A stretch of 13,716 nucleotides of DNA from Candidatus Latescibacterota bacterium (GTDB taxonomy: Bacteria > JAAXHH01 > JACQVL01): contig JACQVL010000159.1 of NCBI GenBank assembly GCA_016209865.1, forward strand, positions 1-13,716, given 5' to 3'. A program made the position numbers and the translations under genes. Of the stretch, positions 8,247 through 10,479 are shown piece by piece; the stretch's first letter is position 1, and each line of letters starts with the position of its first letter. The notes below the pieces were generated by a model. It was not told the DNA's origin. It made no database searches and saw only the letters and a list, made by a program, of their open reading frames with translations.

Positions 8247-8525
8247 ATGGCCAGAATGGTACAGTGCGTGAAGATTGGCAAGGAATTGCCGGGACTGGAT
8301 TTCGTGCCGTTCCCGAATGAGCTTGGCCAGCGGATCTACGACAACGTGTCGCAGCAAGCCTGGCGGATGTGGCTCGACCACTCGGTCATGCTCATCAACG
8401 AGTACCGGCTGAACTTAGCGACGAAGGAAGCCCAGCAGTTCTACGATGAACAGTTGGAAGCGTTCTTCTTCGGCGAAGGCTCCCAACTGCCTCCCGGTTA
8501 CGTCCCGCCCAAAGCCAAGTCATAA
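8247..8525 (+). CDS. yggX: Probable Fe(2+)-trafficking protein YggX
   Basis: A 92-residue cytoplasmic protein matching the YggX family along its whole length, with the usual family size. It begins MARMVQCVKIGKELPGLDF with the conserved Cys7, then ELGQRIYDNVSQQAW, W..WLDHSVMLINEYRLNL, and the FFFGEGS..PPGYVPP tail. In enterobacteria YggX protects iron-sulfur enzymes from oxidative damage and has been linked to iron handling; the exact chemistry is debated. The start follows a strong AGGAGG site (8234-8239). It sits immediately downstream of the tRNA terminator and 2 nt before a radical SAM gene, so a link between iron-cluster protection and an oxygen-sensitive Fe-S enzyme is plausible. That link is inference from position. 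Confidence 0.96.
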   Translation: MARMVQCVKIGKELPGLDFVPFPNELGQRIYDNVSQQAWRMWLDHSVMLINEYRLNLATKEAQQFYDEQLEAFFFGEGSQLPPGYVPPKAKS

Positions 8526-8527
8526 CG

Positions 8528-9967
8528 ATGCGATGTCCCGGCGATCTCCTGCTCATCTCGTCCTACGAGCTCGGCCATCAGCCGCTCAGTCTCGCCTCCC
8601 CGCTCGGGTTCCTGTCCCGCGCCGGGTATGAGGCGACGGGCCTCGACGCGGCAGTCGAGCGGCTGCCGGAGCCGCTCCTCACCCGCGCCCGGTTCGTCGG
8701 GATCGCCGTCCCGATGCACACCGCCATGCGACTCGGCCTCCGGGTCGCCGAGCGGGTCCGGGCGGTGAACCCGGCCGCGCATCTGTGCTTCTACGGCCTG
8801 TATGCGTCCCTCAACGCCGGGTATCTCCTCCAGCACGTCGCGGATTCTGTCATCGGCGGGGAGTACGAACAGCCGCTCGTCGACCTCATCCGGGCGCTCG
8901 ACGCGGGCGATTCCCGGCCGGTCGACGGGGTGACGGATCGACAGCATCGCTCGGTCCCCGTCTTGCGGCGCCTTTCGTTTACCCGGCCCGATCGGCACCG
9001 GCTACCCGAACTGAAATGCTACGCCCATCTGGACACCGGCGAAAAGAAGGTGATGGCCGGGTACGTCGAGGCCAGCCGGGGATGCCGCCACACCTGCCTG
9101 CACTGCCCGATCACTCCGGTGTACCGCGGCCGGTTCTTCATCGTCCCGGCTGAGGTGGTGCTCGACGACATCCGGCACCTCATCAGCCTGGGCGCGCGGC
9201 ACATCACGTTCGGCGACCCGGATTTCCTCAACGGGCCGGGTCATGCCCTGCGCCTCGCCCGCGCGCTTCACCGCGCCTTCCCAGACGTGACTTTCGACAT
9301 CACGACCAAAGTCGAGCACATCATCGAGCATGCCGGCCTCTTCCCGGAACTGAAATCCCTCGGCTGCGCGTTCGTCGTGTCCGCCATCGAGTCGGTCAGC
9401 GACCTGGTGCTCGAACGGCTTGAGAAAGGGCATGACCGGGCGGACATCGTGCGCGCCCTGGACATCCTCGACGACGCGGACATCCCGATGCGGCCGTCCC
9501 TGGTCGCGTTCACCCCATGGACGACCATAGACGATTACTTGACGATGCTGGAGTTCATCGAGACACGCTGTCTGATCGATCACATCGATCCGGTGCAGTA
9601 CACCATCCGACTCCTCGTCCCGCCCGGTTCCGCCCTGCTCGACCGGCCGGAGACGCTGACCTGGCTCGGCCCGCTCGATGAGGCGGCGTTTTTCTACCGG
9701 TGGGATCATCCGGACTCCCGCATGGACGCGCTCCATCGCCGGGTGAGCCGGCTGGTGGAAGACGCCGTCCGCGCGAACGAAGACCCTGCCGTGACGTTCT
9801 CCTGGATCAAATCCCTGGCGGACGCGACGGCCGGCGTCTCCCCCTTAGCCTCGCTGTCCCCCGTCTCCCTCACACGCCGCCGCATTCCCCGGCTGACCGA
9901 ATCGTGGTTCTGCTGAGCAGAGCCGACGGAAGGTCAGTTTGGCCTTCTTACAGGAACGGGGATATAG
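8528..9967 (+). CDS. Radical SAM protein, probable selenoprotein with Cys-Sec-Ala-Glu-Pro tail
   Basis: Read conventionally this is 462 residues ending WFC at TGA 9914-9916. Reading that TGA as selenocysteine gives Cys462-Sec463-Ala-Glu-Pro and stops at TAG 9965-9967, for 479 residues. The CUAEP motif matches the family I know as CUAEP/CCAEP-tail radical SAM (seleno)proteins. The N-terminal part (about 7-120) looks like the Rossmann-type B12-binding domain of such radical SAM enzymes but lacks the DxHxxG base-off ligand motif, so cobalamin binding is doubtful. The radical SAM core has CRHTCLHC (Cys186, 190, 193) for the 4Fe-4S cluster that cleaves S-adenosylmethionine. A SECIS-like hairpin follows the TGA. 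The substrate is unknown. Its start is 2 nt after the yggX stop, so it is likely co-transcribed. The 462-residue form is the alternative if the genome lacks Sec machinery. Confidence 0.85.
9914..9949 (+). promoter_or_regulatory. Sec codon TGA with bacterial SECIS-like hairpin
   Basis: After TGA (9914-9916) a hairpin forms: GAAGG (9929-9933) pairs with CCTTC (9943-9947), extended upward by a T-G wobble and C9935-G9941. The five-base loop AGTTT (9936-9940) has a G at its second position. The loop begins 20 nt after the TGA. This agrees with the bacterial SECIS rule of a short stem, a G in the first two loop bases, and about 16-37 nt from UGA to the loop. It would recruit SelB. Confidence 0.75.
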
Positions 9968-9969
9968 AA

Positions 9970-9997
9970 GGCAGTAGGCAGTGGGCAGTAGGCAGTG
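9970..9997 (+). repeat. Left heptamer array of the four-helix-bundle cassette
   Basis: Four contiguous 7-bp units in alternating form: GGCAGTA (9970-9976), GGCAGTG (9977-9983), GGCAGTA (9984-9990) and GGCAGTG (9991-9997). It starts 2 nt after the TAG stop of the radical SAM gene. It is inverted relative to the array at 10446-10474. Confidence 0.93.
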
Positions 9998-10037
9998 GAC
10001 GGGGGAACGGTTGTCTGTTTACGAGCCTGTGGTTAAG

Positions 10038-10412
10038 TCAAGAGTTTTGGAGAGAACGAATAAGACGATGGAGCATCTTGCCTAATCGGTTACAATGGTT
10101 CAATGCTGGAAGAACTTCAACTTCTTGGATCAATTTAATCCGGTTAGCGAGTAGAAGATGAGTTTCCAGTTCCTTAAGGGAGCCCTGTGCGATTCTGAGA
10201 AATTGAATATACTCTCCTCTGTTCTCCCTACCATAACCTTCAGCAATATTCGCCGGAACCGAGCTTACTGCTCGCCGAATTTGAGAGGTCATGCCGAATA
10301 ATTCCTCTTTCGGAATACGCTTGGTCAGCAAATAGCAGGCTTCCGCCAGATCCATCGCCTCTTGCCAAACCCTCAAATCTCGGTACGATTGAATCGAGCG
10401 TTCGCCCATCAT
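10038..10412 (-). CDS. Four-helix-bundle protein (23S rRNA intervening-sequence protein / S23 family)
   Basis: A 124-residue protein. The family hallmarks are SYRDLRVWQEAMDLAEACYLL, PKEELFGMTSQIRRAVSSVPANIAEGYGRE and YIQFLRIAQGSLKELETHLLLANRI. Members form pentameric four-helix bundles. They occur as the ORF of intervening sequences in 23S rRNA genes, are scattered elsewhere in genomes, and resemble the Avd accessory protein of diversity-generating retroelements. Biochemical function is unknown; nucleic-acid binding is suspected because of the basic surface. The start at ATG 10410-10412 (or the adjacent ATG 10407-10409) follows AAGAGGACAGGA; the frame also opens at a GTG inside the right heptamer array, which is unlikely. 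GC content is clearly lower than in neighbours, suggesting transfer. No reverse transcriptase or variable repeat is in the window, so a retroelement is not supported. Confidence 0.93.
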   Translation of the reverse strand: MMGERSIQSYRDLRVWQEAMDLAEACYLLTKRIPKEELFGMTSQIRRAVSSVPANIAEGYGRENRGEYIQFLRIAQGSLKELETHLLLANRIKLIQEVEVLPALNHCNRLGKMLHRLIRSLQNS

Positions 10413-10445
10413 TCCTGTCCTCTTATAAGGAACAGATGTTTTCCC

Positions 10446-10474
10446 CACTGCCCACTGCCCATCTGCCCACTGCC
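10446..10474 (-). repeat. Right heptamer array of the four-helix-bundle cassette
   Basis: CACTGCC occurs at 10446-10452, 10453-10459 and 10468-10474, with one degenerate 8-bp unit CATCTGCC (10460-10467) between. Read on the minus strand it is GGCAGTG repeated, the inverted counterpart of 9970-9997. It ends 5 nt before the stop codon of the dehydrogenase gene. Confidence 0.92.
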
Positions 10475-10479
10475 CGCTT

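Follow-up and report, generated by a model that had tools for sequence, protein, structure and literature searches.

The in-frame TGA at 9914-9916 of the window, the 13,716-nt stretch of Candidatus Latescibacterota DNA analysed here, is almost certainly read as selenocysteine, carrying a radical SAM gene into a Cys-Sec-Ala-Glu-Pro tail. Taken together, decoding as Sec and membership of the NCBIfam family NF040546 (CUAEP/CCAEP-tail radical SAM (seleno)protein) can be held with very high confidence. The family is already named in NCBI and the window gene is a new member of it; what is new in the present analysis is the covariation of a SECIS hairpin, the kinship with ArsL, and the recurrence of iron and Fe-S genes, rather than arsenic genes, as neighbours. 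The features of the gene itself are:

8528..9967, + strand: CUAEP-tail radical SAM selenoprotein gene (NF040546 match, read-through translation, homologues)
9905..9928, + strand: tail motif codons W-F-C-Sec-A-E-P-T (invariant W, F, C, C/U, E and P in 32 homologues; synonymous-only A-E-P codons)
9914..9916, + strand: UGA selenocysteine codon, residue 463 (TGA in 33/48 homologues, Cys codon TGC or TGT in 15/48)

Reading frame and family membership

Read-through from the ATG at 8528 to the TAG at 9965-9967 gives a 479-aa protein with the C-terminus WFCUAEPTEGQFGLLTGTGI. The codons from 9905 onward are TGG TTC TGC TGA GCA GAG CCG ACG, and the sequence agrees with the first-pass annotation that Ala-Glu-Pro and 13 more codons to TAG follow the TGA in frame. 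The ordinary ORF, 8528-9916, specifies 462 aa and ends in ESWFC. It had also been claimed that conventional annotation would cut the protein one residue before its Cys-Sec pair. The truncation is real: in Thermomicrobium roseum DSM 5159 the CDS of WP_012643191.1 (locus L061, 7953-9389), named CUAEP/CCAEP-tail radical SAM protein, stops at the TGA and is thus cut short before its Sec, an example of how gene callers still shorten members of this family. The position of the cut was misjudged; since the ordinary ORF ends after Cys462, a cut-off annotation retains that residue and loses Sec463 and everything downstream.

The read-through protein scores 713.8 bits against the NF040546 model, over the equivalog cut-off of 500, in the search that the first-pass annotation had proposed. 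The 462-aa form scores 693.4 bits, so the tail itself is recognised by the model and is worth 20 bits. On read-through, the C-[U/C]-A-E-P motif that defines the family is present as WFCUAEPT. The homologues with CCAEP in place of CUAEP that the same annotation proposed to look for also exist: the 48 family members compared divide into 33 Sec forms and 15 Cys forms. This set comprises the window gene, 12 phylum relatives, T. roseum and 34 loci from named genomes, where 36 loci were found and the 34 that reach the tail have either TGA (19) or a Cys codon (15). The 12 phylum relatives that carry the gene, in a small phylum from which 16 genomes were compared, are all of the Sec form. A tree built without the tail requires at least three Sec/Cys state changes, so that exchange between the two residues has been repeated.

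The tail consensus across the family is W-F-C-[U/C]-x-E-P, and no variation is seen at W460, F461, C462, C/U463, E465 or P466 among 32 aligned homologues with 39-59% identity to the window protein. That the TGA is instead a true stop, with the protein ending at Cys462 and the downstream similarity a remnant, is very improbable. Such a stop would suit the T. roseum annotation, and the 462-aa form alone still matches the family model well over its cut-off; but across 23 distinct Sec tails all variation in the A-E-P codons past the TGA is synonymous (Ala as GCA, GCG or GCT, Glu as GAA or GAG, Pro as CCN), the Cys homologues run on through the site, a covarying SECIS lies downstream, and the genome has a full Sec machinery and a second Sec gene, selD.

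A covarying hairpin downstream of the UGA

9929..9947, + strand: putative bacterial SECIS hairpin (covariation, loss in Cys forms, fit to published model)

The hairpin lies 19 nt after the UGA. Its 7-bp stem pairs 9929-9935 with 9941-9947 around the loop AGUUU (9936-9940), which an inner A-U pair can narrow to GUU. Across 20 distinct Sec tails, a count that leaves out three distinct tails with a loop one base shorter and three near-copies, the stem pairs in 93.6% of cells, and two-sided changes are seen at six of the seven stem pairs, with 30 such cells compared with 10.3 in shuffles. Sliding the stem partner by one column halved the pairing. The closing C-G pair and the G at loop position two are invariant in the Sec-tail alignment.

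When all distinct tails are counted, including those with the shorter loop, 163/182 positions are paired in the Sec forms versus 41/105 in the Cys forms, and the mean fold z is −2.0 and +0.26, respectively. By this comparison, the hairpin is lost in the Cys forms. In close relatives the residues after AEPT become ASRKGSF while the hairpin is kept. The window hairpin has an MFE of −11.1 or −13.0 kcal/mol, depending on the stretch folded, and taken singly its z of −1.18 is unremarkable; the support for a SECIS is thus comparative, from the alignment of the family rather than from the window hairpin alone. The published bSECIS model specifies a small apical loop, a G in the first two loop positions, a spacing of 16-37 nt and an MFE of −7.5 kcal/mol or lower (PMC13188914), and the window hairpin has all of these properties. 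SelB carrying Sec-tRNA-Sec would bind this hairpin right after the UGA and insert Sec463 to give the 479-residue protein.

Selenocysteine machinery

The genes selA, selB, selC and selD, which the first-pass annotation had named as a check on its reading, were all found in the genome of the window (3.75 Mb, 83% complete), with tRNA-Sec (anticodon tca) on contig C14, ∼80 bases after selB. The family model, the Cys homologues and the Sec machinery all favour the proposed read-through into a CUAEP tail, and we strongly infer from these sequence data that Sec is inserted in vivo. The selD of this genome is a selenoprotein gene too, with an in-frame TGA in the active site FSHGAGUACKL (L136, G000:C19:20500-24000).

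Both selB and tRNA-Sec are over the cut-off in 11 of the 12 phylum relatives with a CUAEP gene, and neither was detected in G007, an 87% complete assembly that carries the gene. Among the genomes searched, selB is over the cut-off in 13/18 Sec-form MAGs, and so not found in the other five, versus 8/14 Cys-form genomes. A strict rule, in which presence of selB means the Sec form and absence the Cys form, fails on these numbers. The gaps in the Sec-form MAGs may reflect assembly incompleteness.

Gene neighbourhood

8247..8525, + strand: yggX-type Fe(2+)-trafficking / oxidative damage protection gene (Pfam Iron_traffic, 7.6e-39)

The yggX gene ends 2 nt before the radical SAM gene begins and is probably its operon partner. 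The two adjoin in 12/12 phylum relatives carrying the CUAEP gene, at several Chloroflexota loci and in Rubrobacter; in KSB1, yggX is near the CUAEP gene but on the opposite strand. At other CUAEP loci NfuA takes the place of YggX (9 scanned neighbours), and the two were not seen together at any locus examined. The remaining recurrent neighbours include DUF169 (9 scanned neighbours), an ATP-grasp ligase (8 loci) and a formyltransferase (6). The 25 commonest Pfam and NCBIfam families of the neighbours include no arsenic genes, and no conserved thioredoxin-like partner is among the recurrent neighbours. The linkage to yggX or nfuA provides a physiological lead, pointing to iron and Fe-S stress.

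The yggX gene is single-copy in the phylum and is also present in G008 and G014, both of which are without the CUAEP enzyme, so it is not exclusive to the enzyme. These two relatives, from the same order, keep selB as well and mark loss or gain of the enzyme; tRNA-Sec over the cut-off is kept in G008, which belongs to the main genus, and none is over the cut-off in G014.

The ATP-grasp genes form a coherent subgroup of amino-acid ligases found beside CUAEP genes in Ignavibacteriota, Chloroflexota, KSB1 and Actinomycetota (L030, L033, L039, L041, L050, L053, L055 and L057). Their mutual identity at these eight loci is 35-57%, compared with 21-30% to the ATP-grasp genes of ArsL clusters, and their presence hints at a peptide or conjugate product. 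An ATP-grasp ligase was considered as an obligate partner and is not counted as one, since the window genome has the gene elsewhere, unlinked to the CUAEP gene, and G008 and G015 have it although they are without the enzyme.

An ∼80-nt intergenic palindromic repeat (GGCAGTAGGCAGTGGGCAGT...) is found at about 30 sites in the window's genome. In the window its arms lie at 9970-10010, 3 nt past the selenoprotein stop, and at 10444-10475, and they are split by a 23S_rRNA_IVP (four-helix bundle) gene at 10038-10448 on the − strand. The genome's two other PF05635 genes have no such arms nearby.

Predicted fold and proposed role of the Cys-Sec tail

9083..9106, + strand: CX3CX2C radical SAM motif, C186-x3-C190-x2-C193 (CRHTCLHC; invariant in 32 homologues and in ArsL; Pfam Radical_SAM 4.9e-14)

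The protein has both the motif and the domain of the radical SAM superfamily. Its AF2 model (pLDDT 92.2) predicts a B12-type N-terminal Rossmann domain followed by a radical SAM partial barrel, and the closest solved folds are AprD4 (Z 27.9), MgmA (Z 26.8), OxsB (Z 26.3) and TsrM (Z 25.3). After a loose linker, residues 451-460 have a pLDDT of ∼85, falling to ∼59 for residues 461-470. The invariant cysteines of the 32 aligned homologues are limited to C186, C190 and C193 and the tail pair (Cys or Sec at 463). The protein is predicted to bind a single [4Fe-4S] cluster through C186/C190/C193 and to bear Cys462-Sec463 on a C-terminal arm.

An ArsL-like mechanism is proposed because the sister enzyme ArsL has the same single-cluster core and a Cys-Cys tail. 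Reductive cleavage of SAM would give a radical (3-amino-3-carboxypropyl, the species proposed for ArsL) that is then transferred to a soft, thiophilic acceptor. The Cys-Sec or Cys-Cys tail would either hold this acceptor or itself be the acceptor, and the neighbouring iron and Fe-S genes (YggX in the window, NfuA elsewhere) would supply or repair the cluster of the enzyme. Our best, though tentative, suggestion is that a soft atom is held by the Cys-Sec tail or that the tail itself accepts the radical; the placement of the tail in the active site and the type of reaction are what we infer by homology. The missing arsenic genes in the CUAEP context make it probable that the acceptor is not arsenic. 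They also count against ArsL-like chemistry itself (none in the 25 leading families), as do the lack of a third tail Cys and the low pLDDT of residues 461-470. More doubtfully, the family may catalyse a radical reaction, so far undescribed, that forms a carbon-heteroatom bond. The Cys-Sec or Cys-Cys tail would offer a soft element, which might be selenium, arsenic or an iron-sulfur species, to a SAM-derived radical in an iron/Fe-S-linked pathway. If true, this would be chemistry like that of ArsL but beyond arsenic metabolism. The occurrence of a Cys-Sec tail in the sister family of an enzyme that makes C-As bonds offers a concrete and testable hypothesis for the purpose of the tail.

A purely redox role for the tail is about as likely as the acceptor role, and is put forward just as tentatively. 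The Cys-Sec pair would then be a redox or hydrogen-donor site that works without a metalloid: it would form a selenenylsulfide, supply a substrate radical with an electron or H atom, or resolve the catalytic cycle. Vicinal Cys-Sec and Cys-Cys pairs are classic redox pairs, and the tail is of this type; the neighbours are oxidative-damage and Fe-S repair genes, not arsenic genes, and the closest solved fold, AprD4, is a radical SAM dehydratase. However, ArsL, whose Cys-Cys tail occupies the corresponding position in the protein, makes C-As bonds, and a redox site finds no conserved thioredoxin-like protein among the recurrent neighbours.

NfuA restores the sacrificed cluster of lipoyl synthase. 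It is conceivable, although unlikely, that an Fe-S or iron species is what the CUAEP enzyme modifies or salvages, or that the enzyme inserts sulfur or selenium, with NfuA or YggX likewise restoring a sacrificed cluster and the tail ligating a second cluster or the transferred chalcogen. The position of YggX directly upstream in the window's phylum, Chloroflexota and Rubrobacter is consistent with this, as is NfuA at the other loci, but the invariant set contains no extra Cys for an auxiliary cluster, and YggX is kept in the two relatives without the enzyme.

Comparison with known systems

The solved structures AprD4, MgmA, OxsB and TsrM have the B12-type radical SAM fold in common with the window protein at an identity of only 14-18%, and we know of none with a Cys-Sec tail. 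No paper in the literature searched mentions the CUAEP/CCAEP-tail family or NF040546, although the Haft selenoprotein papers may discuss it. A 2026 inventory that covers 119 families of prokaryotic selenoproteins (PMC13188914) does not include the CUAEP/CCAEP-tail family. That inventory lists other radical SAM enzymes as selenoproteins, the ArsS-type radical SAM selenoprotein (TIGR04167) and TrsS (NF045646); these are different families and are absent from the 18 NCBIfam matches of the window protein.

The next-best NCBIfam match is the ArsL model NF040542, at 314.7 bits. ArsL and the CUAEP family, its sister, are 32-37% identical and split with full support (100/100) in the tree built without the tail. 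Both have the CX3CX2C, T(K/R)V(E/D)HI, FxPWT and DPxQ motifs and a C-terminal Cys-Cys pair, and the CX3CX2C set and the tail pair are the only cysteines common to all. ArsL, of arsinothricin biosynthesis, forms C-As bonds, for which transfer of 3-amino-3-carboxypropyl to arsenite is proposed. Its RCCLKC tail, which presumably binds arsenic, has a third Cys that the CUAEP tail lacks, whereas the CUAEP family has ∼40 residues more linker ahead of the tail and, unlike the four ArsL sequences compared, includes Sec forms.

The NF040542 score and the common core motifs and Cys-Cys tail might suggest that the window enzyme is itself an arsinothricin-type ArsL acting on inorganic arsenite. We consider this improbable: the score is under the ArsL cut-off of 450 bits, the C-terminus is not RCCLKC, the clades are separate, and the ars genes (arsM, arsN1, arsR) carried by annotated ArsL loci are missing among the recurrent CUAEP neighbour families. 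With NF040546, by comparison, the window protein agrees over the whole length and in the CUAEP tail, in a family whose model name already implies Sec and Cys variants. There is no essential difference; the window gene is a member from a small phylum, with yggX as its probable operon partner.
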